The notes beneath the pieces were generated by a model that had not been told where the DNA came from, did no database searches, and saw only the letters and a program-made list of their open reading frames with translations. This document shows positions 1 to 55,530 of a stretch of 64,000 nt of DNA, piece after piece; positions within the stretch are counted from its first letter, which is position 1; the number at the start of each line of letters is the position of its first letter. The position numbers and the translations under genes were made by a program. This DNA is from Sipunculus nudus (Eukaryota; Annelida; Sipuncula; Golfingiida; Sipunculidae): contig CM049319.1 of assembly GCA_026874595.1 (NCBI GenBank), positions 15,465,601-15,529,600 on the forward strand. Reading direction: 5' to 3'.

Positions 1-693
1 TACGCTGCAGACATCCAAGCTCATATCTCTGGAACCGTTTGACCAATCAGGAAAATTTTTTTGCACAAATGTAGCCCTTGGAGAGCTTTATAACATACGC
101 AAAACTGGTGGCGCCACCTGCAGCCATTTTTGCACAGCTCCTGTCTGTTTGTCTGCCATGGGATAAAATCACTCATATCTCGGCAGTGGTTTGACATATC
201 TGGCTAAAATTTTGCAGGTTTATACATCCCCGACAGCTCTCTTGATTTTATGACAGGTGGAGCCACCTGCATTCTAGTTTATGCAGCAGACATCCAAGCT
301 CATATCTTGGGAACCGTTTGACCGATTGGGCAAAAGTTTTGCATGTGTATAGTTCTCACATAGCTCTTTATCATACGCAAAACTGGTGCCGTCACCTGCA
401 ACCATTTTTGCTCAGCGTCCATCTGATTGTCTGCCACGGGCTAAAATCACTCATATACATGTAGTGGTTTGACTTATCTGCCTTAAATTTTGCATATGTA
501 TACAACTGGGACGGCTTTCTGGATTTTGTGGTAGGGGGGGCAGCCTTCATACACAATTTGGCTGCAGACATCCATGCTTATATGCAACACTTCACTCTAT
601 TTCCCCTTGCCACTTAATCCATGCCTCACTTCACCCGTTCCACTCTGATTTAGGCGGATACACGTAGTCGCTTGTCGACTACCCGTATTCTAG
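1..693 (+). mobile_element. 3' part of a hairpin-ended, Helitron-like repeat (family C)
   Basis: About two and a half units of a roughly 280-bp tandem repeat, recognised by recurring words such as ACATCCAAGCTCATATCT, GGAACCGTTTGACC and GGTGGCGCCACCTG. The element ends with a perfect 7-bp stem (GTAGTCG 664-670, CGACTAC 676-682, loop CTTGT), seven more bases, then CTAG at 690-693 followed by T. A short hairpin just before a terminal CTAG is the known 3' signature of Helitron-superfamily transposons. A second copy with the same 3' end lies at 17366-18973. The 5' end is outside the window. No coding capacity is seen. The repeat structure is plain; the Helitron assignment is inference. Confidence 0.65.
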
Positions 694-3116: not shown

Positions 3117-3169
<53 letters not shown>

Positions 3170-3356: not shown

Positions 3357-3500
3357 ACGAAATTTTGAGCCCGTGAAAATATCAAAATTTACGGTATACA
3401 TTGTGAAACGACCTAAATGTCATAATATTATTACAAAAGAATACTTCTTTTTAAATGCTGGTATGCTGTTAATAACTGACATTTGAGTATTTGTACTCAC

Positions 3501-3940: not shown

Positions 3941-5115
3941 TTGTGTGAACCTATGCTTTTAATTCAGCTTCCACAGATCTCGACCCACCCTTTTCCGATC
4001 ACCACAGCCTTTGTTAAGGTGTTCATACCAATATTTCAGTGTAGATATTTGATCCATATTGCGTCTACAACAGCATATATATTTGCAGCATGGACCCCTC
4101 CCCTTTTCCGAACATCAGGACTTTTTTTCAGGTTATCTCATTTTAATATAGCTATACAATCTTTCAGGGTTTGACCCGAGATCTGGACCCACCCCTTTTT
4201 AATCGCCACACCCTTTATTAAGGTGTTCATACTTTTATTTCAATTTAGATCTATAAATATTGGCATCATATATTGCGTCTACAATATATAGGTGCAGCCT
4301 GGACCCTGCCCTTTTCCCTACATGAGGACTTTTTTCAGGTTAGGCTATCTCATTTTAATATATAGCTTTACAGTTTTTCGGTGTTTGACCCGAGACCAAC
4401 ACCCACCCTATTCATATCACCACAACCTTTATTAAGGTGTTCATACCAATATTTAGATAAACAATTGTGTGTACAATATATGCAGCCTAGCTGGACCCTC
4501 CCCCTTTTCCGTAAATTATGACCATTTTTCAGATCTTTCAGGCGCGGATCGAGGGGGGGGGGTGGTGGTGGTGGTGGTGGTGGTTCAGACATATCTTAGC
4601 ATGAAGTTTTTTTTTTTAGTCGCCCCCCCCCCCCAACCTTAACCAACGACATTTTTTTAGACAAATCTTAAGCATGAAGGGTGGTTTTTGGAGTCGAGAC
4701 CCCCCCCCCCCCGCATGCCCTTAACCAACGACCCTTTTTTAAAGGCAATTTTTATGCGCGACCCCCGTTGACCCCTCCCTACAAAAAATCCCGGATCCAC
4801 GCCTGTTATATCATATTAATAGCTATATTCAGTCTTTCAGGGTTTGACCCCACCCCCCCCCCCCCCCCACCCCCAAATACACACCTTTTCCAAAACCTTG
4901 ACCCGCCACGTAATTTCCAGGACCCATCCCTTTCCAATCGCCAAAACCTTTGTATTGAAGGTGTTCATACCAATATTTGTAGATATTTCGTCTACAATAT
5001 GCAGCCTGGACACGCTTCTTTGCCGAAAAGGAGGACCTAGCTTCCTACTATAGGTTATCTCCCATTAATATCGCTATATAGTCTTTCTTGGTTGAACCCC
5101 CCCCCCCCCCCACCC
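3941..5115. repeat. Degenerate ~220-bp tandem repeat with poly-C tracts
   Basis: Four diverged units share the phrases GACCCACCC, CCTTT(G/A)TTAAGGTGTTCATACC, TGCAGCCTGGACCC and TATCTCATTTTAATAT. They start near 3960, 4170, 4390 and 4830. Between and inside them are a (GGT)n run at about 4559-4582 and pure C runs at 4623-4634, 4700-4712, 4853-4868 and 5097-5111. Proline-rich open frames here come only from the C runs and are not genes. Confidence 0.75.
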
Positions 5116-11024: not shown

Positions 11025-14000
11025 ATGACGATGGAGTACTGGCTGATCAGCGCTCCTGGTGAGAAGACCTGTCAACAGACATGGGAGGTCATGAACAACG
11101 TCACCTCACGCCAGAACAACCTTTCAGCTAACTACAAGTTCCACATTCCTGACCTCAAGGTAGATCATTAGTGTTTCATTTTAAATTAAAATTCAGCACT
11201 GCTGTAGATCTGTGAGAAATTACAACATTTGATGGTCCAAACTTATAAATGAGATTTTGAATACAATGGGAATTTGTTATTTTTCTACTGTTGAGGTTTT
11301 AAATCACTTTTAAATTTTCATCAGAAGGTGCTATACAATAAGCCTGTGTGATAGGAAATTTTAAGTAAATGTCTCGGTCATGTTTCATTTCTTTTCTATC
11401 ATTCATTTAACAGGACATTGAAAATGTCAAAATCTTTTTCATTGCTATAAAGCTAAACAGCTGCATGCTTTAATTACACCAACTCTTACTTGATCAGTAA
11501 ATGTAAACTTAAAGTTTTTTTTTTTGTAAAGAGTACTAAAAAAAGGTGTTACACAAATGCCCTACCCCAGTAATACGAACACCCTATGACAACATGGCTA
11601 CCAGGGGAGATTCCCTTGGTATTAATGCCACCAGATGCAGATCTCTGGGGTTGACCAATGACCACAGAGCTGAAATGATTGATACATGAGCCATGTACCA
11701 GCCTAGCCCTCTCTCTTCCCCTGGGACACTGAACACTGTAGACTGTGTGGTGCCTGTCCCACCGGGCTCGGAGCCTCTCTGGTTCATCTTAGCTTCAGCC
11801 TTGCAGAAGCTGAGAATATAGGGACCAAGGAATACCTAGACAGTCAGGATAAGGTTGGTATAGGCATATATTTATATACTTTATGTAATATTAGTCTAGG
11901 CATGTGTCTTTGTGTATTTCTGTAGTTCCTTTAGAATAAATTCTTGTGGCCACTAATTGCCTTTTATCTGTCTCAGTTCAGGTGATCAGTGCATGCATGG
12001 AAATGATCATTTAATATATCCGCCACACTACCTTTAATTAATAGCTGGACCCCATTCTAGTTACACTATTTTACTGGTTATTTGATATAAATTCTCTCTA
12101 ATTTAATTAATGATTTTAACATCTTCACAGGTTGGGACTCTTGATGTTCTGGTTGGGTTGTCTGATGACCTCAGTAGACTGGACACATACACAGAAAGGT
12201 AAGTAATTTCAGTACATGCCTGCCACACACTAGAAACTCCTAATCAGCAACCAGAAAGGTCTTGGCAACATCTCTTGAAAACCTGTGTTCAGACTCATCT
12301 ATAACACATTGCACCAGTTCAATCAGTATGCTTTAGTGTCAAGGTCATTTTATGCATCTCTGCCAATAGTCCACCTGCCACAGTGCATTAATTAAATTTG
12401 GCAACTGACTTTCATCAGCAAGGATTGCATAAACCCTCATTTCAGTTATCTTTCAAAACATTAGCATCAGCCCTACACTCCTTATGCAGCAGTTAAACAC
12501 TGCAGTCATTCCAGATCTCCTTTGTTTTAACTGCTGCTTTGTTTAGCACATTTTTTCCGGGTTCCAACACTGGAGCTGGCACAGGGCCAGGAAACAGACC
12601 AACGAGAGCAGTTTGTCACAAGTTTAAAACTTGGGAGTTGGATGCACAATGCGATACCATGCTCCCATTGGTCCGATTAGTATAGTGATTAAAAGCCTTA
12701 GCCCTGTATCAGCCCTGGTGGTGAAACCTGATGAATCTTGCTGTACAAAGCAGCGGTTAAAGTCAAGGAGATCTAACAGCTGTGAGAGGAATGTACATCA
12801 GTTGATCATCATTGTATCCCCAGACAAAGTCAGGGATACTATGGTTTTATTATCATCTGGTGTTATCTCATGAGATGAATGTGTCACTGCCAAATTATTC
12901 ATGATTTATATAATAACCAAATTAATTTTATCATGATAAGTTATTATAAATGGAAATAAAAAAACAAAGTACCTCTGAAGATTCCTAAATTCACAAGACA
13001 TTCATTAATTTGACAAGGTCAAAAGATATATTTTAATATTTGTAGCCACCTTGAATATTTTATTTTAAAAATATATTTATAGCTAATTTATGCATTTTGT
13101 GGTTATGATAGTGGAGGAGTAACTGGTTTGATTTGTTGGATTAGAAATTGGCCGGAATAGTATAATATGATAATCACAGTCAATACTATATTATTTTACA
13201 GCATCACCAGGAAGGTGGCCCAGTACTTAGGAGAAGTATTAGAAGATCAGAGAGACAAACTGCAAGAAAACCTGTTGGCTAATGGGAGTAAGTACAAGTC
13301 AGGGTTATCCAGTCAACCGGAGAAGATTGCTTGATTAAAACCAGGCTCACATGAGCTGATTTTGTATTTTCAGGAAGGGAGGGAAGGGGATGATCTTAAA
13401 TTTAAAATGTAACGGACAAATAATGCAGGACATAACACACCTGAACAAAATGATACAGAACAAAACTTTGCTGAGCATATCACATCTGGAAAATAAACAT
13501 GGGACATAACTTACCTAAAGGGGTTGTAATTCTATGACAATGGAAAGGCATAAATACAGATTTGCCTTTCCACAGAAAAACTTTCCTTTCCACTAAAGAT
13601 GCATTCTACCACCATATCAAACTTTCAGTCCCACTTCACTCAGTGTAAACCTGTTTCTGCCAACTTGCATGCACTTTTGCATTAAAAAAAACTGAATGTT
13701 TACAATAGTAACACTATTATATCAGACACATGATTGTGTATTGAAAAAAAAAAAAACGGAAAAATATAGGATATGAGGGTCTAGATGCCAGCAAGTATAA
13801 GAATTTGTATACCATTCTATAATAAAATATCAGAAATATAGGGAGTTGGTGGATCACCATTTCTAAAATATTTAGTTTTTAGCTCAGCTGACTGTAAGTC
13901 ATCTGAGCTATAGCGATCACTCTTTGTCCATCGTCCGGCCATCCGGCCGTCTGTCCGTTAACAAGGCACAAATCGTAACCGCTGTACATGGAATCTTCTT

Positions 14001-17000
14001 ACTTTACATCCAGAGAGGTCCATGAAAAATGTCCTCGGAAACCTGGAATTAGGTCTCTGTTACCCATATCCTTCGAGCTATGGGGCCCCAAAATACCCCC
14101 CAGAATAGTCAAAAATTTCATACAAAAACTTCAATATCTCATTGACTACATCACTGATAGTCATGATTTTTTGGCATACATATTGAACATAAGATGTTCC
14201 ATCAGTTGCTGCAGACTGGTGGCGCCACCTGTATTTTTCGATTTTTTACAAATTTTTATGCCCCCGCCACAAAGTGGCCGGGGCATATAGTTTTACCCAT
14301 GTCCGTCATTCCGTCATTCCGAAATCAAACAGTTGTACAGACTTTTTTTTGCAATGCCTGCAGATATTGGCCTGATTTTTGGTGTGTGGGCAGATAATGA
14401 CCAGTTACAGATCTATTTCACGTTTCGTCCTGGTTGACCTACTTTTGATTGTTTTACGGCTCCTAAATATAGAAAATTTCATGAAAAATATAAATTTTCA
14501 TGACAAATACACATGTACGGACTTTTTTTCGCAATGCCAGCAGATATTGGCCTGATTTTTGGTGTGTGGGCAGATAATGACCAGTTACAGATCGAGTTCG
14601 CCTGACGTCCCGGTTGACCTACTTTTGACTGTTTTACGGCTCCTAAACTTAGAAAATTTCATGAAAAATAGAAATTTTCATGACAAATACACATGTACGG
14701 ACTTTTTTTCGCAATGCCTGCAGATATTGGCCTGATTTTTGGTGTGTGGGCAGATATTGACTAGTTACAGATCGAGTTCGCGTTTCGTCCTGGTTGACCT
14801 ACTTTTGATTGTTTTATGGCTCCTAAATATAGAAAATTTCATGAAAAATATAAATTTTCATGACAAATGTACATGTACAGCCGTTTTTAGCCCTCAGCTC
14901 ATAGGCTGATGGCCTATTGTCGTCACCCAGCTGTCCGTCTATCCGTCCGTCCATCTGTCTGTCCGTTGTCCGTCCGTCCGTCTGTCCATTCCGCGTCTCT
15001 TAACTTTTACCTTGTGAGCGGGATATCTATAAAAGGATTCACTATTGGAATTTCATTTCATCAGTGAAGATGTATATCGATAAAGTTCGAAGATGATCAG
15101 ACAGATCCTGAACATAGAAAATTTCATGAAAGACAGAATTTTTATGAAAAATGCACATGTATGGACCTTTTTCACAATGCCTGCGTATACTGGCCTGATT
15201 TTTGGTGTGTTGCTTGATAATGACCCGTAACAGATCGAGTTGCATTTTGCCTTTGTTGACCTACTTTTGACCATACAACACCTCCTGAACTTAAAAAATT
15301 TTACCAAATTTAACAAATGTTTCTAATTAGCCCCAGGCGGGGGCATTTGTGTAGTTCCGACACATCTAGTTTTCTCTATTTTTGAGACATTTAAAAAAAT
15401 GAACATCTGTTAACAGGGCACAAATCGTAAAGACTGAACCTAGAATCTTCATTCTTGACATTCTAAGAGACTTATGAAAAGTCTCCATGGAAACCAGAAA
15501 TTAGGTCTCTGTTAACCATATCCTTCGAGCTATGGGGCCCCAAAGTACCCCCCAGAATAGTGAAAAATTTCATACAAAAACTTCAATATCTCATTAACTA
15601 CATCACTGATGGTCATGATTTTTGGCATACATATTGATCATGAGATGTTTCATCAGTTTCTGCAGACTGGTGGCACCACCTGTATTTTTCGATTTTTTAC
15701 GAATTTTTTTCTCTATTTTTGAGACCTTAAAAAATGTGAACATCTGTTAACAGGGCACAAATCGTAACGACTGGACCTAGAATCTTCATTCTTGACACAC
15801 AGGGAGACCCATGAAAAGTCTCCATTGAAACCTGAAATTAGGTCTCTGTTACCCATATCCTGTGAGCTATGGGGCCCCAAAGTACCCCCAAGAATAGTCA
15901 AAAATTTCATACAAAAACTTAAATATCTCATTAACTACATCACTGATGGTCATGATTTTTGGCATACATATTGATCATGAGATGTTTCAACAGTTTCTGC
16001 AGACTGGTGGCGCCACCTATATTTTTCGATTTTTTACGAATTTATAAATGTGAACAGCTGTTAACAGGGCACAAATCATAAAGACTGGACCTAGAATCTT
16101 CATTCTTGACACACTGAGAGGTCCATAAAAAGTCTGCATGGAAACCTGAAATAAGGTCTCTGTTACCCATATCCTTTGAGCTATGGGGGGCTCCCAATAA
16201 CCCCCCAGAATAATGGAAAATTTGATAAAAACAAACTGCAACATCTCAATAACTACAACACTGATGGTCATGATTTTTGGCATACATATTGATCAAGAGG
16301 TGTTTCATCAGTACCTGCAGACTGGTGGTGCCACCTGTATTTTTTTCAAATTTTCACAATTTTTTTTTCTCTATTTTCGAGACATTTCAGGATGTAGTTA
16401 TCTGTCAACAGGGTACAAATCGTAAGGACTGGACCTAGAATCTTCATTGTTGACACACAGGGAGACCCATGATAAGTCTCCATGGACACCTGAAATTAGG
16501 TCTCTGTTACCCATATCCTTTGAGCTATGGCACTCCAAAGTACAGCTCAGAATAATGGAAAATTTGATACAAAAGCTGAAGTATCTGAACAACTAATGCA
16601 GAGATCACCATAATTGTTTTCATGGATATTGATCATGGAGTGTTTCATCAGTTTCTGCAGACTGGTGGCACCACCTGTATTTGTTCGGGTTTTTTTACGA
16701 ATTTTTTCTCTATTTTTGAGACCTTTAAAGTTATGAACATCTGTTAACAGGGCACAAATCATTAAAACTGGACCTAGAATCTTCATTCTTGACACACAGG
16801 GAGACCCATGAAAAGTCTCCATGGAAACCTGAAATTAGGTCTCTGTTACCCATATTCTTTAAGCTGTATGGCTCCAAACTACCCCCTAGAATAATGGAAA
16901 ATTTGATACAAAAACTGCAGTATCGCAATAACTACAACACTGATGGTCATGATTTTCGGCATACATATTGATCATGACCTGTTCCATCAGTTTCTGCAGA

Positions 17001-20000
17001 CTGGGTGCGCCACCTCTATTTTTTTCAAATTTTTACGATTTTTTTTTCTCTTTTTTTGATACCTTTAAAGATGTGGTTATCTGTCAACAGGGTACAAATC
17101 GCAACAACTGAACCTAGAATCTTCATTCTTGTCATGCAAGAAGGCCCATGAAAAGTGCCTGTGGAAACTTAAAATTAGGTCTCTGTTACCCATATCCTTC
17201 AAGCTATAGGACTCCGAAGTATCCCTCAGAATAATGGACAATTTGATACAAAAGCTGAAGTATCTGAACAACTAATGGGGAGATCACCATGATTCTTTGC
17301 ATGGATATTGATGTTTGTAAGTGTTTTTATAAGTTTCTGCAGACTGGTGGAGCCACCTGTATTTTTGTACCCGCCAAAACGAAGTTTTGTGGATACTATG
17401 TTTTTGACGGGGTTCCTCCGCCGTTGCCGCGTTCGTTTCCAGAGAGCTCCTCTGGGACTTGATTTTATCAGCTTTCCAAGCTCATATCTCAGGAACCGTT
17501 TGACTGATCAGGAAATAAAATTTATACTAATGTAGCCCTTGGATAGCTCTATAACATACACAAAAAATGGTGGCGCCACCTGTAACCATGTTTGCACGGT
17601 GTCCATCTGTTCATCTGCCTTTGGTTAAAATCACTCATATCTCTGCAGTGAATGGACTAATTCACCTGAAATTCGGCATGCGTATACATCCTGGATAGCT
17701 TTCTTGATTTTATGACAGGTGGCGCCACCTACATTCTCATTCACGCTGATGACATCCAAGCTCATATTTCGGGAACCGTTTGACCGATCGGGCACAAATT
17801 TTTCATGTATATAGATCTAACATAGCTCTTTATCATATGCTAAACTGGTGGCACCACCTGTAACCATTTTTGCACAGCGTCTGTTTGTCTGCCGTGCAAT
17901 AATGACACTCATATCTCGGCAGTGGTTTGACATATCTGCCTAAAATTTTGCAGTTTTATACATCCTGGATAGCTTTCTTGATTTTATGACAGGTGGCACC
18001 ACCTACATTCACGTTCACGCTGATGACATCCAAGCTCATATCTCGGGAACCGTTTGACTGATCGGGCCAGAATTTTGCATGTGTATAGATCTAACATAAC
18101 TCTTTATCATACACAAAACTGGTGGCACCACCTGCAACCAATTTTGCACAGCGTCTGTCTGTTTGTCTGCCGTGCAATAAAGTCACTCACATCTTGGCAG
18201 TGGTTTGACATATCTGCCTAAAATTTTGCAGTTTTATACATCCTGGATAGCTTTCTTGATTTTATGACAGGTGGCGCCACCTTTATTCTAGTTTATGCTG
18301 CAGACATCCAAGCTCATATCTCGGGAACTGTTTGAAAGATTGGGCCAAAATTTTGCATGTGTATAGATCTCACATAGGTCTTTATCATACACAAAACTGG
18401 AGGGGCCACCTGCAACCATTTTTGCACATTTTGCACAGCGGCTGTCTGTTGGTCTGCCGTGGGCTAAAATCACTCATTTCTCTGTAGTGGTTTGACATAA
18501 CTGCCTAAAATTTTGCAGGTTTATACATCCTGGATAGCTTTCTTGATTTTATGACAGGTGGCGCCACCTACATTCTAGTTAACGCTGCACACATCCAAGC
18601 TAATATCTCATGAACCATTTGACCGATTGGGCCAAAATTGTGCTTGTGTTTAGATCTCACATAGGTCTTTATCATACACAAAACTGCAACCATTTTTGCA
18701 CAGCGTCTGTCTGTTTGTCTGCCGTGGGCTAAAATCACTCATATCCATGTAGTGGTTTGACTTTTCTGCCTAAAATTTTGCATATGTATACAACTTGGAC
18801 AGCTTTCTGGATTTGTGGTAGGTTGCACAACCTACATACACATTTAGGCTGCAGATATCCATGCTAATATGCAACATACCTCACTCTGTTTCCCCTTGCC
18901 ACTAAGTCCATGCCTCACTTCACTCTGATTTTGGCAGATACACGTAGTCACTTGTCGGCTACCCGTATTCTAGTTTTTAAAGTTTACACATTTTTTCTCT
19001 ATTTTTCAGATATATAAATACAGCCTAAATCTTGGCCTGTTGGTTAATCTGTTTGATGCTTCAGTTGAATGGGTATCTACCATTCTGATGATAAAATTTC
19101 CTTTTGTGAATCTCTTCCCAGTCAGCTGAGCGCCGTGACCCATGGGTCACTTGTTTTTTAAATTTGTTCTCTATTTTTTAGATATATTAATACAGACACA
19201 ATCTCAGCGTGTTGGTTAATCTGTTTGATGCTTCAGCTGAATGGGTATATACTACCATTCAGATGATAAAATTTCCTTTTTGCGAATCTCTTCCCATTCA
19301 GCTGAGCGTCATGACCCATGGGTCACTTGTTGTGTCATGTTTTGTATTACTTATCCAACTACTATCAAGGTGAAAAGGTGTTATTTCGACCTCTGACCCT
19401 GGTCAAGCGTCACTGAACACAACAACAGGATATACCACACCTTGACAAAATGATACAGAACAAAACTACGCGTTTTTTACGCTATTTTTGTGATTTTTGA
19501 TAGCATTTTAAAATTGTGAAGGATTGTAATGAGCTAATCAATGTTTCTAGCGAAGCATGGTTATATTTCAGTTAATGGTATTTATGCCCTGAATTGATGA
19601 TATCCAGGTATCACATCACTGTTTCTACTAATTGTATTTTATGATATATATGATTTCTATTTCAGTGGACCTGCCCACCTACCTGACAAGATTCCAGTGG
19701 GATATGGCTAAATACCCAATCAAGCAGTCCCTCCGTAACATTGCAGATATAATCTCCAAGGTCAGAAATGTTGCATTGAATAAAACTCACAGTACAAAAT
19801 TCATAGTTTTTATGAGGTTTTAGTTATTTCCTGTGACTTGAATTGATGTTTATACAGTGTATTATGTGCTAAATGCAATTGTTACTAATTTAAAATATGT
19901 TCTGAACTTTTCTGCACATGCCTTACTTACTATCTCCAGAGTCAAATCTTTATATCAATATTACTATGAGAAATCTTTATATCATTGTTACTGTGAGAAT

Positions 20001-23000
20001 AGACCCAGCATTGATGTTCATGCAGCATATTACTTAAGATATACATGTTTTGCTGTATGTTATTATTCCATGGTTCAGATTTCTTGAGTGTATTGTTTTG
20101 CTGCAGTTTCTCCAAATATGAAATTGACAGAAAACCACTACACAGTGACAACAGTCCATGGTTATTTAATGACAGTGGTGCATTTTATTGTTAGTGTGCT
20201 TTATTTCTCATTGTGTGATTGTGTTTTCAGCAAATGTCCCAAATCGACAATGATCTCAAAACCAAATCACAGGCTTACAACAACTTGAAAGGAAACCTGC
20301 AGTCTTTAGAGAGGAGACAAACGTGAGTTTAACCAAGTTAATGTTCTGGTATGATGTAACTTATTGATATGGGCTGTTGCCCTTGGAAGTATGGATTATT
20401 TAGAGCTAAAGTTGCACTCCTCATGCAGTGGTTATACGCTGCAGTCAGTCAAGATCTCCTTTCTTTTTAACTGCTGTTTGTTTTTGGAGGTCTCAGCCCA
20501 ATGACTGGCACAGGGCCAAGAATCAGACCAGCAAGAGTTGGGTTTAGCAAAATTGAAACTGGGAGTTGGATGCACAATGTGATACCGCACTCTCATTGGT
20601 CTGATTACAATTGTTTGCTCTGTGCTACTGGTAGCGGTAGCGGTGAAACAAAGAATTTTGCTATACTGAGTAGTGGTAAGGATGAAGGAGATCTGAAAGA
20701 CTGCAAGATAAAGTGCTGTGTGACGAGTGTAAACTAAAGTTAGAACGTTTACTTTGACAAAGAAACTGGTTATACATTTAAAACAACTCTAAAGATAAAG
20801 GCACAATAAAGACACATCAATGCATGATAACAGTCATATCTAAAAAGAAAGGTATATCACAAATAACTTTTTTTCATGTATTTCTTGATAATATATGTGT
20901 TCCAGTTGTGATATATAATTATTTATCACAAAGACAGCCAATGAACATGCAAAACCTTCTTAATTAGCTCCATTTCACAAGTAATATACCTGCATTTGGA
21001 TCACCCAAAGTCATTACCAGAATATCTCTTTAAGTAATTTAACAGCATGCAACTCGGTTAAAATAATGATCAGCGTGACCTTTGCTAAGGACATGTCAGT
21101 AATTAGAGAGCCATGCTAACATTTTAGGATAAGATATACTCTCACTGTCCATTGCTTAATACAGTGTATATCACTCCCAGTGTTTGTCATCAACTAATTA
21201 ATTAAATTTTTATCAGTTAATATTTGGAGTGCTAGGCATCTGCAGGATCTGAGCCTATACAGTTTCAAAGTTCACTTATGAATTGAGCAAGTTTCATCAG
21301 ATTGAACTATCATGGTTGAAATTGTCATTATTAATTTTTCAGGGGGAGCTTGCTGACGAGACACCTTGGTGACCTGGTAAAGAAGGAGGACTTTGTGCTG
21401 GACTCTGAATACCTTACCACTCTGATCGTGGTCATACCAAAGTAAGTGGTCATGTTTTACATAGGTGGTCATACATATCATATACATAAGACAATCATGT
21501 CAAATACAGTAGGTGGTCATACATATCATTTACAGTAGGTGGTCATGTCATATACAGTAGGTGTTCACCTCATATACAGTAAGTGGTCACATTTTATAAT
21601 GCACAGAGTATAGACATGGCCATGTCTGTTTGTTTGCAAACTGTTAATAAACAGTTAATAAATTTTTAGCTCAGATGACTGAAAGGAAAAAGATTACAAA
21701 TGGCGCCACCAGTCTTGAGTACAAGATGAGCACAATTTCAGCCCAATACAAAGTACCAATCACTAAGACGAACAGGATGTAAATGTATGGATGGCCGCAG
21801 TGCAAAAATAATTGTAGGTGATGCCACCAATCTGGAGTACGAGATGGAGGTATCCAAGATCTATGGACATGCACAATTTCAGCCCAATACATTGAACCTC
21901 TCCTGAGATACGGGCTGTTATAACTAAGACACCCATATTCACATTGCATAAAAAGGATTGCAGGTGGCACCCATCAGTTTTTGTTAGGCACCAGTTCACA
22001 TGTGACCCAATAACTATGCCAGGTTTCAGAAAGATAGGTCCAAGTTCTCCAAAAACAAACACTGTCGTGGCATGAAAACATAGTATCCATAAAAAACCGT
22101 TTTGGCAGATACAGTAATTAAATATCTATTGCTGTCAGTTTGAAACTAGCAGGGTATTTGATTTCAGTGATTTTAACACAAATTGTTTACAGAGAAAATG
22201 GGTACTATATTTGCCAATTGTATAGACATAATTATAATATTTGCTTAAATGAAAGTGTACAGATCTTGATACTTTCTTGTATGTGTATGTGTTTGCACAA
22301 ACAAAAATTAAGTTTTTAATATTGCAGACTATAGGTGTTGTTTTTAGTACCATCATGAAAGCTGCGTTGGTAATTTTACATAGTAAATGTTAAGCGTAGG
22401 TTACGATCTTGATGTTTTATTTCACAGGGCCAATCAGCATGACTGGTTCGCCAAGTATGAGAAACTGACTGATATGGTGGTTCCAAGGTCATCAAGGTGA
22501 GAGTCATATTATATAGGGTGGCTGGCCCAGATTAACACCATGATAATAGGACCCTTGAGAAATAGCTATCAAAATGCTGAATCAGCCCTCCCTGACTTAT
22601 AAATCAGTGTGTCATAATAAATAAGACTGGAGTCAAATAAAAAAACACAACTGACATTTATGTTAGTTGTTAGTCCTGTATGTGGAAGTTGAAAAAAACA
22701 TAAATGGGTTTATTTTTCACAGTTAAACATCACCTATCAAGCACATCATTGTAGCAACTACCACAAAATAACCACTTTTTTCACAGTTTTAATTCTTCTT
22801 TGCTTTTTATAATCAGACCTTGCTTCAATGCCACCTGGAAAATGCGACAACTTGAGGTCGTAAAATTTATGTTTCACTGTATTATACCAAAATATTTTGT
22901 TCTTGTAAAATGTAAAAGAATTATTCACTGCTTGACTGCCCTGGATGCCAAATATAGTTGTTGATAGAAGGGTGGAGAAGTGTTAATTTTAAAGCCTCCT

Positions 23001-26000
23001 GAAAAGAAATGTTAATTTATTTTGTAGGGTGATTCATGAGGATAATGAGCACGCTCTGGTCACTGTGACACTGTTTAAGAAGGTCGCTGATGAATATAAA
23101 CACCACTGTCGAGAAAACAGGTAAGGCATGGAAGAGAGTCTGTGAGGTGAAAAATTTTGAATGTGACAGTTTCTTTATCACAATCACTGGTAGCTATATT
23201 TTCAGTCATATTTAACTTTAAAAAAGTTAACAATAACTGATACAGTTGTAGACAGTCAATACTTTGAATGCTTCTGGACAAGTTCAGTCTTTACATTAAA
23301 AATTAGGTCATCATGAGTTCATGACACAATTTACTGTAAATGTGGTAGACTTTATATTGTGCTGTAAGTAATTAAGCAAATATAACATCTCCAAATTGTT
23401 CCTTTGATAAGATGATGGGTCATATTGTTTATGATAGGATCAAACTTCATACTAAAATGCTGATCATATTGAATCTTCATATTTCAAAGATGGTCAAGTG
23501 TTTAAGGTGCAGTTGTTATCAAAGGTTATTAAGGTTAATATATACTAACGTTATTCTTGTCAGGTTTGTTGTGAGAGACTTTGTTTACAATGAGGAGCAG
23601 TTGATGGCGGGTAAAAATGAGATCACCAAACTGGCTGCAGACAAGAAGAAACAATTTGTGAGTCACTTAACATGACAAATTTACCTCAGACTAAACTATC
23701 AGAATAAGATATAAGTGTTTGCTTTACCTGCAACATTACACTGTTGCTCACACATGGATTGAACTGTTTAATAGATTTTGAAGAGAAGCATGAAAATTTA
23801 TAGAATTTTTTCAAGAATGAACCCTCTCTGGTGCTAATGAATATAATCAATAAAATGCAGCATTTTATCCTAAAAGATATGCAAAAGGCAAAAAAATTGA
23901 ATATGAAGCTTTCTGAAAATTATTAGAAAATTTCTCAAATTGCTGTTTATCCATGCAGGGTCCTCTTGTGCGCTGGCTGAAAGTCAACTTTAGTGAGGCA
24001 TTCTCGGCATGGCTGCATGTTAAAGCTCTTCGGGTATTTGTTGAATCCGTATTAAGGTGAGTGTGATCTGATTTAAATTAGAGAGCTTTCAGGAGTTTAA
24101 ATGTACTTTACTGTATAATTAAGACATTTGAATTAATATTTTAGAGCTGATGATACCCAGCTATTCCTGAAAAACACTGAAAAGCCAAAAAAAGGTGATA
24201 TCCCAACAAAAAGACTTTCTAGTATGTCTGAAATAACGATGTATTAATTTTTATACACCCATCATATGACGGGAGTACTGGTATTATGGTATACCCACCA
24301 TCTATCTGTCTGTCTGTCTGTTAACTTTTAGTGTCAACCAATAACTTACAAGGGCTTTGATGGATTTTCACCAAACTCACAGTAACTAATTACCAACAGC
24401 TTATCTTGCCCGAGTTAATTTAATGAGCATATTTAATGAGGTCAGAGGTCACCTCACTTTTGATGCAACATAATGACTTAGCAAAAATCCTATGGCTTTT
24501 CAATAAACTCATTATACATATTTACCAATAGAGTTTTTCTCACCTCAGTTAAATTCTCAGCATAATAATGATGTCAGAGGTCACAATACATACCACGGGT
24601 GTATTATGCACGTTTGTGGTGCTCTTGTTATTAAACCTGATATTTCAGGTTTTCTAGGGATGTCAGGTTTTATATGATGTGCTTTGTAATAAATCAGGCT
24701 TTTCCACACAAAACATGGAGCAATTCAGTATTTGAATTATCCATAGCAGAAGGACAACTATGTAAAAGAAATTAATGAATATGAAATATGCTATGCATGG
24801 GATGGGGCCTTCTGTTCAGGCACTGGATTCTTATCTTGCCATATCAAAATGGCAAATTCCAACCAAGCCTTAAAAATTCATTTGTTATATTCCTTTAGAT
24901 ACAAAACCTGGAAGCCTTAAAGAGGTTGGGAAAGGAGTGCAGACTCTCTTGTAATTACAGCATCAGACTATTTGGCTTAATTTCCTACATTGCTACTAAT
25001 TTAAAATTTTTCTGATTTCAGGTATGGGCTTCCAGTTAATTTCCAGGCCATGCTGCTGAAGCCTCATAAAAAGTCTTCAAAACGTCTGAGAGAAGTCCTG
25101 AACCAACTCTACAGCCACCTAGATAACTCCTCCTTTGCTGGAGCCACCACTGATGTAAGTAAAATATAAATTTGGCTACCTACTTCAGTAATTCCTCGTA
25201 CCCGTGTTGTAAAGTGATAGATCTCTGTGGACAGATGATATAAATAAAATGATAAAGATCAAAATACAGATTCATTTTAATATAAATATTTCTTTTAGTG
25301 TACGGATGAATAAATTTTAAAGTTGAAGGGGAAACAAATGAACAGCTAAAATCCTTAAATGCCCCCTGGTGGCTTGAAGGTTAACTAAACCCATGCAGTA
25401 CTTGGAGGACCTTGGCCAAATCTGGTGGTTTCTAGCTGCAGATGTATTTTGGGAGCAGCCATGGGAACTAGCAATGCCTTGGCAAGGCTGCATCAGTGGA
25501 CTAAAGTTGTGCGCTGGGTAACAGTAAATTAATGTATTTTTTTGTGTGCCAAGTTCTCGCAGATTCTACCTTTTAAAGGGAAAGAGAATACTGATTAAAG
25601 AAATAGAAAGAAAATCATCCAAGATAAAATGGTTTCCCGCACGAGGATAAAGTGCTGGTCAGCCTCTATTGGGTGATATAAAGCACCTTTGAGAAACTGA
25701 GCTTTCAAGTTATATCTGCTGTCAGAACTTTGCCATATTTCATGTCCAGCATTGAACATATCAAGCACCTATTATATACCTTATTATTGGTTATCAATAT
25801 AAAATTTGTGAAAACTTTGAAAATTCAATCTGCTTCTTTTACAAGTCTGTAGAAACAGTAACCTGGTGGATTTTCATGGAATACCATATATTTTGATTTA
25901 TTATTAGGTTTATACATACAGATGCAGATACTGATATTAAAGTCCAGAATACATAAAGCTTCAGTAACTGAATCATTTGCAAGACATGTTCTGATTATCT

Positions 26001-42239: not shown

Positions 42240-42790
42240 TTCCTTATGTATGGTCCACAGGAAATCATTCAAATCCATACACCTCAAACTCAATATTGGA
42301 TCAAAATCAATTTTCAACATGAGAATTTTATCCAAAGATTGAAATTATGACTGAATGTCTCAAATTCAGCAATGATTTTGTCAGATTGACATTGCCCTGA
42401 ATAGCAGGTTTCCTATCAGGTGGACATTCAATATGGCCGGGGGTGATCAGGAGCATTTGGTGGCCTTCGACAGCTGTCATCAGCTGGTGCTACTCGCAAA
42501 TAAAATTTGAACTATGTACAGTGATTCAGTCCACTGATATTGATTCAAATACATCAACTTCAAACTCAATATTGGAACAGAAATAATTTTCAACATGAGA
42601 ATTTCATCCTTACATTGAGATTATGATCAGATATTTCAAATTCAGCAATGAATTGGTCAGATTTACATTGCCATATATGGGCCTCAAATCTGGCGGACAT
42701 TCAATATGGCAGAAACCTTGAGTATTAGGAAGCGTTTGGCAGCTGTCACTTGCAGGTGCGCCTGCAATCATATTTGGACAATTGGGAGGC
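42240..42790 (+). repeat. ~275-bp direct tandem duplication
   Basis: Two diverged units starting near 42268 and 42543 share ACTTCAAACTCAATATTGGA, ATTTTCAACATGAGAATTT, ATTTCAAATTCAGCAATGA, GGACATTCAATATGGC and GGCAGCTGTCA. It lies in the DNAAF1 first intron. No coding content. Confidence 0.8.
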
Positions 42791-44249
42791 CCAATTGTTC
42801 TTGTTATTCAACATTTTGACGTCTTTTGCAACAGTTGGAGTAATAATTATCAAATGCAATCGTTATTTTTTCAGCATTGAAACAGTGACCAAAGATTGCC
42901 TGCGCAAGCCTCTCGTCCGCCATGTTAATACAACAGGAAAAGACTTGGTTGAACCAATGTTGATGCACATTGGTTGAATCAGTCATGTGATACTGAATTC
43001 CCGCAGTTTAGACAAAATCTATGAATGAATCTAAATACATGCTGTTCTGATCACAGCGAGCATGAAGCGTCCGCAGAGCTGCTCAACTGGTACACTCACA
43101 CAGTGTGACTGGTGCCCTCTGACATACTGAACTTGGGTGGATATTCATGAAAGAATTTTGGCCAAACATGACCGTCCCATTTTATAGGCGTTTGCTCTAA
43201 CAGGTCAATTTCAATAGGAAATGGGTCGGGAGAATGGGACTGTGTCCATAAAATGGTGTCCTCTCATCCTGATGTCCCCTCACAGAAGGTCCTACTGTAT
43301 TATGATTAAAAATATTATAATCCAATTCTGTTTCACCAAGAAGTGTCCATCAGTTTTTGAGTCAGTTTTGCAGAGAGTAAATTAATACTGAAGTATTACC
43401 TGTTATTTCATTACCAGGTACTCTTAAAAATATTTCTAAGAAATATTACATGTCATTCCATGCTAACTGTAGTTAAAGGGTAAAGGACATTTGTGAAAGA
43501 TGTTAATTGGATGTTGTTACCATAAATTTTCAAATTACATCATCAGCTAAAGGATACTAAACACTTGGAAAGCATCCCAAAAGCCATAAAAAGTCCTGCT
43601 GTCATCTGCTAAATCAAAGGTATGAATGCAGGGGTTTTCATCCCACCAAAAGGTGAACATCAATCTTAAAAGTACAAAGTCAGATTATGCAGAAAAATTT
43701 CCACTCAGTAACTCAACTAGATCCTGTGGCTACTATTTATAGCATAAAAAACCACCATACCTTGCAAAGAATTTGGGCAAAACAAAAATGTAACATCTGA
43801 GAAAACATTTTAGACTTACAGAAAAACATGTGGACAGGGGTAGTGGAACACACTTTAGTAGAATGGGGTTTTGTATTGTCCATTCAACTACCCCAACCAT
43901 CTGTTTTTTTTTATTTTTCTTTTAAAGATAAACTGACCAAATTTGCATCAATAGCAGAAAAAAATGTGAAACTTCTACTGGTATCATACCTGCCTATGAT
44001 AAAAATTTTATGTACTTTATGGCCTGGTTTACTTGTCTGTCATTTATCTGTAATTCATGGCATTACTGGCAAGTGATCATTGTTTATAACTCTAGGGAAA
44101 AAGTTTTAATCAATTATTAAAAAGGTATATATGTGTCTATATTGCTTTATATTGAACTTGAACTTGAATTTTCTCCCTTTATTAGGAAAAATATTAGGCA
44201 GCAATCAACTTGAAACTTACAGAAATGCTGGAAAACTTAAGTCCTGAGA

Positions 44250-44788
44250 GCCTATTGCTTTTGGACAGAACATGTCAAAGGTCAAGGTAAAAAAAAATGA
44301 AATCTTATTTTCGTCATAACTTTGTCAATAATAGACCTAATATGACCTATCTTCAAAAACTTTGGCTCAATTTATTTCTCTGGGTCTTTTCCATAATCTG
44401 GACTTATTGACTGGTTTCAATCTTGTGTCAACAGTATGACTGTCAGTTGTCCACAATGTCGTGAGATTGCTGGGTCTTGTGTCTTACAACAAGGGCACTG
44501 CAAAGCGGAGCATCACCTCCCACACGAGCATAATCATAATGTGGGGTGTATTACACAAGTCATTCTCACCGTCCGGGACATAGCCTTGACCTTTCACCCA
44601 GTGCCCTCAAAATCGATAGGGTTCATGTGCTGGTGGGCCATATGTAAAAGATGAAAGGTTTAGGTGAAAAGATTTGGCTTAAAATCGATCCACAAGGCAA
44701 TCCTGGACGGAATAGCGGAAAGACGGACGGACGCACAAACAGAGGGGTTACTATATCCCCTCCTGCAATTTTGTTATGAGGGGATAAT
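44250..44788 (-). mobile_element. Hairpin-ended element (family F)
   Basis: Read on the minus strand it begins at about 44788 with TTATCCCCTCATAACAAAAT and then AGGAGGGGATATAG, which pair ATCCCCTC with GAGGGGAT. A CGTCCGTCCGTC stretch follows at about 44740-44720, then text such as GTGAATGACTTGTG and CATAACTTTGTC-like words down to about 44250. It shows the same start plan as families A, B and D. The far end is not defined. Confidence 0.5.
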
Positions 44789-45630
44789 TAGTGATATACA
44801 AGCCACAGTTTTGCAGGAATCTTTTTGAAACATCTTATGCCTTACAATAATATCTCAAAAGTGATTGTTCATTTTTTGGAAAATAGCCGCTAGGGGGGCT
44901 GCACTTCAACATATTGCTTGGCCATATCTCCAAACCTATAAACCTTAACTACATACACTATAGCCCTTTTTGTTTCTCTCCATTTTCCCCATAAGCTTAT
45001 TTAGTCATCTGTTAGGAACGATTAATGTTTATTATTTATATTGGTCAAAGTCCAAGAAAAGCTCCATCTATCACATAAATGGGGAACAAATTTGTAATTT
45101 GAACAGCTCAATTAAACGTAAAGTGGGGGCTGCTGCCCCAAATCCCCGCTCAGGGGGAACCTGGATCCCTCCTCCAGTAATATAATAAACTCCTGGTTTA
45201 TGGGAAATCTGAGAAAAATCATATTGGAATTTCTCAGGAATTTGATCAATCTTTGTAAAGAAACAACAATTTATTTGACACCCATTCTGACCAAGTGGAC
45301 AAGTAGGCCTAATTTTGAACAAGTGCCAAAATGGTTTTTGCAAAGACAACATCAAAATTGATTTGAGTTTTGCCAGTTTGTGTCAGTTCACATACCAACC
45401 ACTTTTACCCATCAGATTTTGGAAGATACATTTTTTTAGATAAACATCAGGATTGAGCTAAATTCTGATACTCATTTTCATATGCCAGAAACAGGAAAAG
45501 TGAAATATAAAGTGAGAAAATGCCGCAGTGACACTCGCCGTGTCACTTACTGACTTAGCTCTCATTATCGTTATATCCCTCTTGTGAAGTTGCGACCAAG
45601 TTCACAACACGGGCATTTTCCAAAACCTAC

Positions 45631-49860: not shown

Positions 49861-52118
49861 CACGATACTGTACTATAAATATCCCCTGGCTCTCCAGTAC
49901 TATTATGCATGGATAGATGTACCAGTTCTGCCCCAAGCAAAATTTCTCATGTAAAATGATTACAAATCTCTATCCATCTGGCAATACAAATACGATTAAC
50001 CACAACCGTGCCAACTGATATTGGACAGCCAATGTTACATGGGGCAGTTCCAGGATTTGGGAAGGGTGCGGGTTACTGTTCACACTGGTTTTAATACCCT
50101 TAAAAGAGCACAACTCTAGAAGGGGAGTGGTGTTGGTTTTCCCCTAAACATGAGAAGAAACCACTGCAAAAAAGGGTATTTTCTTCCAAGAAGGGTGAGC
50201 ATTTAAACCCACAGCTTCCTAGATCTATGCCTCATGTTTATATATTTGAACTAGCAAGTTAGATACTTCCTGCTCGAGTACAGGAAATTTGCTCGTTTTA
50301 ACACTATTTTATATTCACCTATTTTACTGCTATTACACCTGGGGGTCTGAACCTACCCAGCTGTGAGGATATATGTATTGTGTACACTTAATCAGCTGAT
50401 TGACTTTATAAACAGTAGATTCGACAATGCTCATGTGCTCTTTTATTAAATTAAAACAAACAACTGCAGGGAGAACCTAGCCTTGTATAGTGATGTTTGA
50501 TGTCAAGCAGTACTTAACAAATATTTTGGTTATATAAAATTTAATGAAATTTCTAAAAGTTTGAAAATATAAAATATTGTGAAATAATTTGCAACCTGCA
50601 CAAAAATATCAAAATCACTTTATCTGTATGGAAACAATATATTGAATAAATATTTTTTTTAAGAACAGTACCTTTGACGATCTAGAGTTTATGTTTACAA
50701 ATGAACTACATTTCTCCCCTCAAGAGAACAGTTGATTCTCATATAACTGTCCCTCTTGGGAGGAAAAACTATTCATTTAATATCTACCTGCAACTGTTTG
50801 CCACCACACTACTGGCCGCTGGTAATCTATGTACACTCGTACCATAAACAATTTTTCAAACTCATTATCATAAACATTTTTATCGACTTGTTTTGCATAC
50901 ACATATAGCACAGGCACTAGCACGGGCAATTATTTTTTCTAGTAATGCCTTTATTACTGCATGAAAAACCAGCAACCTCATCATATATGTTCAGATACAA
51001 ATTTACAAACGACCCACCACATGTGGGCTTTGGTCTATATACAAATCAAATATACAGAATATACAAAGCAAAATCAGTGCACTTAAAATATGATACATAA
51101 CATCTTAACCTCCATATTTAGAAGCAGATGCTAAAGATACATAGTTTGCAGAACGTAATAATAGTGAAAACCTAAAACAGGAAGGGACAAGTCCTGGTAA
51201 TACAGTATCTCCTACACATACCAAAGAAACTTTATAAATCTTCCAAAAATTAATATTCCATTATTTCAAAGCCTGTGTGGTGTTACCACATACATAAAAC
51301 ACTGCAGTCTGCTAACACAATGTTAATTACAGTACATCCTCACAATTATCACTTTTCTAATGAGTTCCTGTCAATTACAGCACTATTGACAGTAAGGCCT
51401 AAATTGTTCATCAACGCCATCTGGTGAACAGGCCTGAAATCATTTTTAACACACCTTTGAACTGATTCATATGTCAACTTCTATCCGCTTATAATGTACC
51501 TCCATACATTATTATGAGTTTATGAAATTCCTTATATGAACATCAAGTTACTTTTTTTCACTGAATGACCACCAGATGATGCTGATAAGTAACTGAGGTA
51601 TGACTGAAATGCAGTTCCAAGTATCCCACCCGAGCTAGCCAAACATTTCCACAAACGGGTCCTTTTTTTAGTTAGGTGGATATGAAATTGCAAAATTACA
51701 TCTTTTAGCCATTCAAATCATTCTTGTTGGAGAAATTTCAGTCACATCAGGTTATTATGATAATGAGGACCAGCTAATGAATCTTGGTGACACGCATGTT
51801 AATTACTCATATCCACACCTTAGTAACCCTGAGTGGCCAATCAGCTTATCCTTTGTACCCGAAACCATGGGAATCTGCATGGGCCAATCCAATTTAAGAT
51901 AGCATGCATATAATGTACCATTACAAAAACAAAAACAAGCATGAGCCAATCAGCTTCAACTTAACAAGCACATGGCATGTCATTTTACCTGATACATAGA
52001 AACTTGCATGGAGCGATCAAGTTTAACAAAGAAATATGTCTCACTGAAGGCATAATTCTCTTGAAAATGAGACCGTTTTATAAATGACAGGAAATACTAC
52101 ATTTAGCGGAATACAATA

Positions 52119-54799
52119 ACAAGGGACCTATGGGTCACGGCGCTCAGCTGATATATATGATAAAAAAATATGATTTAGAAATGAGGCACATGCTGGTTTT
52201 ATATGGTAATAAAAATAAGCTGTATTATGAGTTGTTGTTGTTTAGCTTATGTATGATTTTGATAGTACCTTTGGAGACAGGAAAGAGGATTAATTTCATT
52301 TATTTCATTAACAAATGGAGTGGGATTGTCACACAGATTTTGACTTGGCCATATAACTAATATAAGCAGAACATATAATATAAGAGTTTAACTATTTATT
52401 AGAAAAATTACAAATATTGTCCTAAATATAATTTTTTATTAAAAATAATAAGAGAATAGTATGATTTTTTCAAATAAAATATGACTGAAATGATTATTAA
52501 AATAATATTAAAGAATATATTCATGAATGCATTCATTAATACATTTTGAAAATATTTGCACTGGTATTCATATACTTTTATTTTTACCTGAATTCCCATT
52601 CTTATGAAAGAAATTTTATAATGGAGTAAATATTCATATTCGTGTTAAAATACAATTGCAAAGTATTCGCACCATGTCTGGTATTTATTCAGTTTTCACC
52701 AAACAATGATGTTGAGAATCCAGAATATACAAAATTCACACATTTAAATAATGATCATAAGTACCTGGTTTTATGGCTTTTATTTATATTAAAAAAAATG
52801 TAATATATTTATTTTGGACTAATTTCACATCAATGTACACACTAGACACAGTAGGAATCTAGATTAATATTATCAACTGCATCTTTGTCTATCATTAATT
52901 TCCTTCATATGATCCCTAATGATTAGTAATGAATAATATGATTACTTTTTTATCATTAAAATTGAACTGAAAAATACCATAGGTGACTGCATGGTGTTAT
53001 TTGGAATACATGACATTCTATCCATCGATACAAGATTCTTATATCATCGGTAGCTGCAAGTTAATTTCCTGTTATTATCAACTAACAAATTCCTTTTCTA
53101 TTTTTCTTTAATTTGTTATTAAAAACCAATAAAAATTTATTAATTTATTGTTTATTGTTATGTAGTTGGTTAAAACTACTAGATGAGTTGGGTTGGACAC
53201 CTAGATCAACTGTGGCTGGCCATTATATAATAAGCTGCCTGGACGCCCCAGTTTATGTCTCGCCTCAAGCATGCATAATTTGCTGAAAGTTCAACCAGGT
53301 CAACATACAGGTGACTCAAGAGGTGCTACAGAGAGCCAAGGTCTGACATGGTCTCATAAAAACATTAATAAAAGCTACAATTTTTGGCCAATATCTTTCA
53401 GCTTTTCAAACTAAAAAGCTGAAATCTTTATGTGTGCATGATATGAAAATTATATCAACAGTACTCACAGGAAACAAACATGCCATGGTCAAAGTTGGGC
53501 AAAATTTAAGGTACTAATTTTATATTTATACTAATAACTTATACAATTTGAAAAATTCAGAACTAATTTTGGGTATTCAATTGAATCCTGATTAAATAAT
53601 GTTACATCCCTGACAAAAAATCTCTAGCTTCAGCAATCCTCTTGTTAAAGGAGTAAATATATTTCTTGATTTTTTACAAAGTGCATTATGTTTTGGCCCA
53701 TAACTTAAAACAATTACGCAATACTGACATCATTTCTGGCATGTGCATAGAGAATATATAGCAAAATATGTATATTACATATGATTAAAGTCAGATCAGT
53801 GGTTTTGATATTAGGCTGTCTTGAAGTGTAACAATGGGTTTTTAATGGAAAAATGAAGTTTTTCATTAATATCTCGAAGGTATTAAGTCCTAGTGATCAA
53901 ATTCTTGGCATGGTAGGGGATTTTTGAGACATCTAATTGTATGCCAAATTTTAGGAACTGAGAGCTGAAGTTGGGGAGCTGAGCACTTGCAAACTGCATG
54001 ACACTAGTTTGATGTAAACAATATGTTACATGGTGCTTGAAAGCTTGAATAAAATCTACAGTTTTTGATCAACCGGTTTCAAATTTTTGGTGTTTACAGA
54101 CAAAATGCTATAAAAAACATGCTGTGAAAATTAAATCCACAGTACTTACAGGAAAAAAACGTGCCATGGTCAAAGTTGGGCAAAATTTAAGGTACCAATT
54201 TTTTATTTTTGTTAATATTTTAAAAAATTTAAAAGATTTTGATCTAATTTTGGGTATACAATTTAATTTTGATTAATTAAAGTTATATTACTGGAAAAAA
54301 AGTTTATAGCTTTAACATATTTTGTGTTAAGTGATCAAATATCTTTCCTGATTTTTTACACAATGCATTATGTTTGGGCCCATAACTTTTTAAATTTTTA
54401 TAATACAGACATAATTTCTGGCATGTACATAGGAACTATATAGAGGAATAAGTATGGTAAATATGAGGAAAAACTGATGAGTGGTTTTGATATTAGGCAG
54501 TCCTGAAATGTAAAAATAGGTTTTTAATAAAAAATTGAGGTTTTTCTTTAATTTCTCAAAGGAACAAAGTCACAAAGACCCAGTTTTCGGCTTGGTAGGA
54601 GATCTTGGGGACATCTAACATTATGCCGAATTTTGGATTCCTAGGTCTTACGGTTTCAAAACGTGCCACATCTACGGACGGACGGACGGACGGACGGACG
54701 GACGGACGGACGGACGGACTGACGGACGGACGGACAGACGGACGGACGACGGACAATGGACCACGACTATAGCTCAGATGACTTATAGTCAGCTGAGCT
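52119..54799 (-). mobile_element. Family-A hairpin-ended element, reverse copy
   Basis: The left end ACAAGGGACCTATGGGTCAC and CTCAGCTGA is the reverse complement of the family-A right end. The right end (54775-54799) is the reverse complement of the AGCTCAG...CTGAGCT hairpin, preceded by a (GGAC)n run at 54672-54750 that corresponds to the GTCC stretch. The core is different from the 13.9-19.3 kb copy: two ~680-bp tandem units (about 53380-54055 and 54056-54700) with ATGCCATGGTCAAAGTTGGG-type words. So the ends are shared while the core differs. Confidence 0.75.
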
Positions 54800-55530
54800 A
54801 AAAAATGACACAGGAATCATAGAGTGTTTGGCCTCATCAGCTCAGTTATATAATACAGGACTGTGTTCATCATCAAAAAATCCTGGGCAGTTTCATAAAA
54901 GCACTATTTAAATGAAATTAAAATTGGTTGATAAACTAGTAAACAGTCTTATTATTATAACATAACTATTTTCCACCATTGATAATACACATCATAATAT
55001 TAAATACCAGTGGATAAATGGTAAATACCAATGGATACATAACATCATGATATTTAATATACAGTGATAGCACATATCATATTTAACAATTTAGATCAAA
55101 CAAAATGTGTATGTTTACAACAACCATGTATTAAAGCCATACAATAATGTATTAGTTTAAATGAAACATATAGTATTTAAAGAAGTGTCCCTTTGCTGAC
55201 TACTGTTGACCATTTAACTTAACATCAGAAAAAATCAAGTTTTGACATCAAAGTACTAATGAAAAGAGAGGGAACTTATGATTACTTTTATATTATTGTG
55301 ACATTCATGGAATAGAGTTTAAACCATGAAATATAAATTTGCACAGTTTTAAGTATGCATTTCATAATATTTAGGACTGTACTGTAAAACAGTGCTTTTA
55401 TGAAACATGGCCCAGTAATTATATTTGGAAGAATAATACTTGCAGGCATTGTTTCTGGAACAGAAAGGTACACTTACGGCAGTGACCAATAGTCTGGGCA
55501 CCAAGCGTGTGTGTCATATCAGTGTGTGTC

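Follow-up and report, generated by a model that had tools for sequence, protein, structure and literature searches.

We analyzed a 64,000-nucleotide stretch of the Sipunculus nudus genome (the window; NCBI GenBank assembly GCA_026874595.1, contig CM049319.1, C14:15465601-15529600) and searched the 1.43-Gb genome for relatives of the hairpin-ended repeats it contains. These repeats are very probably non-autonomous Helentrons (HINEs), and three of them, designated A, A2, and A3, very probably descend from, and were mobilized by, a large Helentron encoding Rep, PIF1 helicase, and endonuclease in the same genome. The plan shared by the repeats consists of a 5′ hairpin whose first arm is repeated in inverted form near the 3′ end, a GTCC run, a satellite core, a 3′ palindrome, and a T-run as target. 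This is the published Helentron/HINE plan, known from DINE-1 and from Cg_HINE of oyster. The features lie in the window as follows.

13880..19331, plus strand: element A, very probably a HINE, with 5′ hairpin TAGCTCAG-C-TGACT-GTA-AGTCA-T-CTGAGCTA, GTCC run, and ~337-bp satellite core
19155 and 19331, plus strand: tandem 3′ ends of element A, which carries B and C
14257..15369, plus strand: element B, nested in A, with hairpin TATGCCCC-C-GCCAC-AAA-GTGGC-C-GGGGCATA and ~180-bp satellite
within 14257..15369, plus strand: 3′ side of element B, with 3′ subterminal inverted repeat (subTIR) GGCGGGGGCAT and terminal CTAG
14886..15105, plus strand: segment D inside B, with hairpin-like start and GTCC run, no 3′ end seen
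17367..18973, plus strand: element C, nested in A, with ~278-bp satellite and terminal TATTCTAG
1..693, plus strand: 3′ portion of another C copy, truncated by the window edge
21690..22107, minus strand: element H, with C-like start and core
24253..24629, plus strand: element E, with 3′ end GGTGCTCTTGTT
42253..42806, plus strand: element G, a tandem core of two copies ~275 bp apart
44488..44790, minus strand: element F, with GTCC run and a single core unit (other copies have several)
52118..54800, minus strand: element A2, with A-type hairpin, long GTCC run, and A-type 3′ end
59640..60790, minus strand: element A3, with A-type 5′ end, A2-type core, and 3′ palindrome GACCCATGGGTC followed by CTTGTT
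59767-59889, minus strand: endonuclease-region remnant in A3

The 3′ termini read CTTGTT in A, E, and F and CTAG-TT in B and C. A2 has a long GTCC run (54674-54754, 92% matches); in the other elements the run is interrupted. The A2 core comprises two satellite units ~680 bp apart. Element G has on its 3′ side a palindrome (ACAATTGGG..CCCAATTGT) and then TCTTGTT; its 5′ end was not found. Downstream of element E there is an exon of a V-ATPase subunit C gene (Pfam 3.3e-10).

A preliminary description of the window, made from its letters, had proposed that six element starts (A to F) share one plan. Five of them belong to real dispersed elements with ends as described, and the plan is of the Helentron type. 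For each query, the best-scored 40 places were kept (of 6135 candidates for A, 4616 for E, 2827 for F, 2179 for D, and 911 for the A|B junction). In ten A loci fetched from the 40 places, the 5′ end starting TAGCTCAG was always present, with differing flanks, and a 3′ end close to GACCCATGGGTCACTTGTT was present in nine; the tenth (L015) had none within the 5 kb taken. We placed E and F by searches that included their flanks in the query. All 58 other matches to E fell within query positions 91-498 (predicted boundaries, ~99 and 480), and all 115 other matches to F fell within 89-407 (predicted, ~100 and 403); in other copies of F the tandem units measure ~145 bp. When ends were paired automatically, only A and B emerged (four of 20 control shuffles yielded one match each), and C and E were paired by eye. 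The exception was D, which was not confirmed as an independent element start: all 40 scored matches begin 26 bases upstream of it, in the B satellite, and 38 stop at query positions 225-228, in a best-first search that favored copies with a B-satellite flank. A spread of satellite arrays by recombination, with incidental ends, would suit cores that are tandem and partly related across families. It is nonetheless very improbable, since the copies share ends and have unrelated flanks, as expected of fixed boundaries.

Elements B and C do sit inside A, as first described; like A2 inside A, they are bounded by A sequence that continues in uninterrupted A units. Comparison with such units revealed seven insertions in T-runs of A (three of B, two of C, and two of A2), none with a duplication beyond the T-run. 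Nesting recurs elsewhere: the ten A loci include B in two (L009 and L010), C in one (L011), and A2 in two (L009 and L013). Furthermore, the exact A|B junction was spanned at all 40 scored places, the window included, and the starts of the A|B and B|D matches are 681 bp apart on C9 and 680 bp apart in the window. Together, these observations indicate that nested sets multiply as units, one way in which complex satellite loci spread. Repeated insertion at one T-run could also produce the recurring A|B junction, a possible but less simple explanation.

Similar elements were formerly annotated as miniature inverted-repeat transposable elements (passages and reference titles of PMC4067079), and the repeats could in principle be tandem-repeat elements of that class moved by a DDE transposase. 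We give this idea scant credence. The seven nested insertions lack duplication beyond the T-run, the two ends of an element differ, and A/A2 has the gene-bearing relative described next; the B, C, and A2 insertions do not combine terminal inverted repeats with target-site duplication.

The preliminary description had suggested a search for autonomous relatives between the same ends. For A and A2 there is one of the Rep/helicase/endonuclease type; for B, C, E, and F none was found at the loci inspected. In the genome, Helitron_like_N had 143 matches (150 of 195 candidates scored). On C7, a 1658-amino-acid (aa) open reading frame (ORF) carries DUF6570, Helitron_like_N (1.7e-27, with PHIH), and PIF1 (1.2e-20), and downstream of it lie endonuclease readings followed by an A-type 3′ end. 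The endonuclease was called by tblastn with that of a C8-family protein, a query region identified as Exo_endo_phos (Pfam 7.2e-12); E values, which hold for a 4.6-kb set, were 2e-12 on C7 and 9e-19 on C3. The C3 copy is ~97% identical to that on C7, with homology stopping at the A-type 3′ end, and the two are colinear upstream as far as tile C3:10553000. At the C3 5′ end, 33 of 33 bases match the A2 hairpin, with AATTTTT before it and a GTCC run and A2-type satellite after it. This satellite is 85% identical to that of the window and extends to about C3:10552227, with no A-type 3′ end in the 400 bases that follow. The C3 element therefore spans C3:10551024-10579902 (28.9 kb) and holds a reverse-oriented B copy. 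Rep, helicase, and endonuclease between the same ends were found for A/A2 only, in copies that are not intact. Upstream there may be an RPA-like gene, marked by a weak OB-fold reading that falls below the Pfam cutoff (Ssb-like_OB, E = 0.0011). A further candidate, C7a (L056 and L057), was rejected as an independent copy, being a segmental duplicate of C7b.

The window elements A2 and A3 are tied to the C3 element by more than their ends. A2 shares with it the 5′ end and satellite (85% over 486 bp) and the 3′ end (33-34 bp). A3 shares the 5′ end and satellite (82% over 313 bp) and, over 125 bp (81%), retains part of the endonuclease region (tblastx, 1e-17). Judged from these alignments, A2 and A3 therefore look like internal deletions of a C3-like element, A3 most directly. 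Element A shares only ends with the C3 element, the nested B and the A tail of C3 aside. Moreover, the gene-bearing element itself carries a satellite region, and the satellite thus need not be captured by short copies.

Of the other Helitron_like_N matches, we inspected loci on C8 (2250 aa) and C13 (2420 aa) and at L059. Within 16-17 kb and with up to 9 substitutions, the C8 and C13 loci had no A, B, C, or E ends of their own; they also had no F 5′ end of their own, in a test that covered the 5′ end alone for F. A separate copy of B is present in the C13 stretch. The L059 Rep locus was rejected as an A-family partner, as it belongs to a different family. An intact 2250-aa ORF with DUF6570, OTU, Rep, PIF1, and endonuclease (L049:3600 to L050:1848) represents a further Helentron family; the fetched loci contain many close relatives of it.

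We compared the ends with randomized sequence, using 500 letter shuffles per element for hairpin stability and 2000 shuffled tails for the subTIR. The 5′ hairpins of A, A2, A3, and B were more stable than all 500 shuffles, and that of F was equaled in stability by one. The 3′ subTIR is complementary to the first hairpin arm at 13 of 13 positions for the first 3′ end of A and 11 of 11 for B (0 of 2000 shuffles as good), 12 of 13 for the second 3′ end of A (2 of 2000), 10 of 10 for A2 (3 of 2000), and 11 of 12 for the C3 element (16 of 2000). Among the marks of Helentrons and HINEs, subTIRs at both ends together with a 3′ palindrome occur in A, A2, and B; an inverted repeat complementary to the 5′ subTIR occurs in A, A2, A3, B, and F; and insertion at T-rich or TT sites without target duplication is seen for the B, C, and A2 insertions. 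The subTIR of E is palindromic, and the hairpin of F differs in its inner part.

Several observations weigh against the assignment to Helentrons and the derivation from the C3 element. In the window copies, the 5′ hairpins of C and E are weak (49 and 176 of 500 shuffles as stable), as are the subTIRs of C (166 of 2000), E (114 of 2000), and A3 (577 of 2000); none was detected in F (692 of 2000). Only in E does the 3′ palindrome fold better than shuffles (11 of 500). The T-run sites also leave duplication of Ts alone possible. With respect to the partner, no copy is intact: the C3 ORFs are broken, the C7 endonuclease is split between frames, and the C7 copy (71165725 to 71193694) has no 5′ end, which was lost inside the satellite. 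The Rep tyrosines were not identified, and the C8 endonuclease protein had no match on window A3 in the same tblastn set. About 3.4 kb of the C3 element, between tiles, is unread, and it is possible that the C3 5′ end belongs to a nested A2 whose 3′ end is hidden there, transposition having been launched from that point. Finally, an A tail of ~140 bp and then a perfect A 3′ end lie beyond the C3 element's own 3′ end (CCCTAGTG).

There is no A sequence on the left of the C3 element. The tail fits a transposition in which a parent nested in A was launched from its 5′ end, its altered 3′ end was bypassed, and the stop came at the 3′ end of A. The tandem 3′ ends of window A (170 bp, 89%), with two 3′ ends likewise at L011, fit rolling-circle end bypass; local duplication is a possible alternative source. 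A head-to-tail junction occurs at L016:3051-3400, where a variant A-type 5′ hairpin and A2-like satellite come immediately after an A 3′ end.

We infer that these elements transpose by a rolling-circle mechanism and that an enzyme of the kind used by A also moves B, C, E, and F. Rep would recognize the imperfect 5′ hairpin and nick in the T-run preceding it, and the helicase would peel off one strand, 5′ to 3′. The end would be marked by the palindrome and CTWG(TT) together with the 3′ subTIR, a better pairing partner for the first hairpin arm than the local one. The peeled strand would then be inserted into a T-run, and everything between the ends, nested elements included, would travel along.

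The CTAG ends of B and C raise the question of a different enzyme. Both elements terminate in CTAG before T, as Helitrons do, and oyster elements with mixed features are described in the portions considered of PMC7992393. B and C might therefore be canonical Helitrons or Helitron/Helentron intermediates, moved by a transposase other than that of A. This seems unlikely: B shows the full subTIR and hairpin plan, B and one C copy have the hairpin geometry of A, and both elements sit in T-runs of A, with no adenine before the insertion point in uninterrupted units. Canonical Helitrons have a 5′ TC, a 3′ CTRR, and insertion between A and T. A, E, and F end in CTTGTT; B and C, despite their CTAG ends, lack the TC start and occupy T-run sites.

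The satellite cores point to relationships among some of the families. Using profile searches, with E values that hold for the window, we found that a C half-unit profile recovers six of seven A units (4e-4 to 0.024; seventh, 5.4) and H (9e-17). The A profile recovers five C units at 4e-5 to 2.3e-4 and other C units more weakly, and the A2 profile recovers A (2.7e-4) and C (2.7e-3). The B profile matched no other core in the window (best E, 0.88). Common descent, which the preliminary description had entertained for all families, thus holds for the cores of A, A2, C, and H, which share a module, and not for the unrelated core of B. With up to 2 mismatches allowed, 21 occurrences of the palindrome GGTGGCGCCACC were counted versus 0.35 expected, 18 of them in A or C and two in H. 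Neither the A 5′ end nor the palindrome had a match in viral contigs. Some C satellite units (18270-18293, 18557-18580, and 256-279) contain a palindrome like GGTGGCGCCACCT followed by ATTCTAGTT. The 3′ end of C resembles these palindromes, with a hairpin and then TATTCTAGTT, and they are possible internal pseudo-ends. On its 3′ side, H (21660-22107, minus strand) adjoins the first arm of an A-type 5′ hairpin, which stands alone.

The 5′ ends of A/A2, of one C copy, and of most copies of B are unrelated in sequence but form a common hairpin, in which an 8-bp stem, an unpaired C, and a 5-bp stem lead to a triloop. We noticed this geometry after the fact and scanned 335,921 bases on both strands for it (8-1-5-3-5-[0 to 3]-8, one outer-stem mismatch allowed), in loci chosen for holding A or Rep/Hel copies; the count is thus no measure of a genome-wide rate. 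The 39 hits, mostly counted on both strands, were all 5′ ends of A/A2, B, or C and correspond to 19 distinct ends (15 A/A2, three B, and one C); ten shuffles gave 0-5 hits. The window C misses the geometry, and the L011 C has it with one mismatch. Three of six B copies have it (window, L009 in a shifted register, and L060) and three do not (L010, L052, and L054). A looser geometry gave 25 hits after known families were masked, versus 15-18 in three shuffles; of the 25, a T-rich flank with TAG, TTG, or TATG after the hairpin was seen in one alone, a B copy.

Hairpins with an unpaired base recall the ends of IS608, and the repeats could be eukaryotic IS200/IS605-like or Replitron-type elements, which have terminal hairpins and a single-tyrosine HUH enzyme. 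The odds of this are very small. For A/A2 it is already disfavored, since a PIF1 helicase and an endonuclease region, marks of Helentrons in the passages considered of PMC4067079, are present in their relative; it could still hold for E and F.

The 3′ inverted copy pairs the very C that is left unpaired in the local 5′ hairpin. In A/A2, all 17 ends keep a local C × T mismatch (after removal of antisense hairpin readings), and a G pairing with the C is found in 18 of 19 A-type 3′ ends, two of these being segmental duplicates; as the copies are related, these counts are not independent events. In B, five of six copies have a local C × C or C × T by eye, lost in L009, with G in the 3′ subTIR. In C, the local hairpin has a bulged C, again with a pairing G in the 3′ subTIR. 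The 5′ hairpin may tentatively be regarded as built one base short of perfect, with the ends forming a switch from Rep-bound hairpin to perfect 5′-3′ duplex, a possibility that we hold with considerable doubt. Rep would bind the hairpin bulged at the unpaired C of arm position 9, and strand exchange to the perfect 5′-3′ duplex would signal arrival at the 3′ end. The lack of the geometry in the window C and of the C in one B copy weighs slightly against this switch. If it operates, structure is kept while sequence is free, and new families with new specificity could arise. As a hypothesis for Helentron end recognition, the imperfect-hairpin rule is simple and open to testing.

Two other stretches of the window are repetitive. 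Positions 2670-3360 contain a ~350-bp direct repeat (78%) with an exact 48-bp duplication within its first copy. Positions 3975-5100 contain degenerate repeats with poly-C runs and had no element match in a self-comparison of the window.

The combination of hairpin and GTCC run had been put forward as a distinct, poorly described design. Its plan is already in print for oyster (PMC7492417) and DINE-1 (PMC4067079), as the portions of these papers considered here make clear. The Cg_HINE of Crassostrea gigas has a left flank with a 5′ subTIR, a complementary inverted repeat, and, in several elements, a GTCY/GTCC/GTCK microsatellite, then a satellite core and a right flank with 3′ subTIR and palindrome (PMC7492417). 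The window elements resemble it in all these parts, and Cg_HINE likewise comprises several families of unrelated sequence. None of the ten autonomous C. gigas Helentrons could be related to it, in contrast to the one tied to A/A2 here, and the portions of its text considered, figures aside, do not mention an invariant unpaired base. DINE-1, HINEs, and Helentrons as presented in PMC4067079 are alike in their subTIR with nested inverted repeat, microsatellite, central repeats, 3′ stem loop, preference for TT, and Rep/helicase/endonuclease partner. The sequences differ, and the gene-bearing element here is ~28.9 kb, with a HINE satellite near its 5′ end. Pearl elements CvA, CvE, and CvG, bivalve repeats with central tandem repeats filed as HINEs, are similar by description only. 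Helitrons make up ~9-13% of oyster genomes, many with satellite cores (PMC11136912), and further literature includes PMC8268682, PMC12628747, and PMC10294476, all likewise considered in part. No published partner for satellite-bearing bivalve HINEs was found, in a search that left out Repbase and subscription papers. PMC7992393 reports no autonomous copy for its oyster elements, and as far as the portions considered go, neither C. gigas paper (PMC7492417 and PMC7992393) ties a partner to its elements, a gap that the A/A2 partner fills here. Relative to these systems, what is new in S. nudus is the gene-bearing partner tied to A/A2, the multiplying composites, the shared hairpin geometry, and the core module common to A, A2, C, and H.

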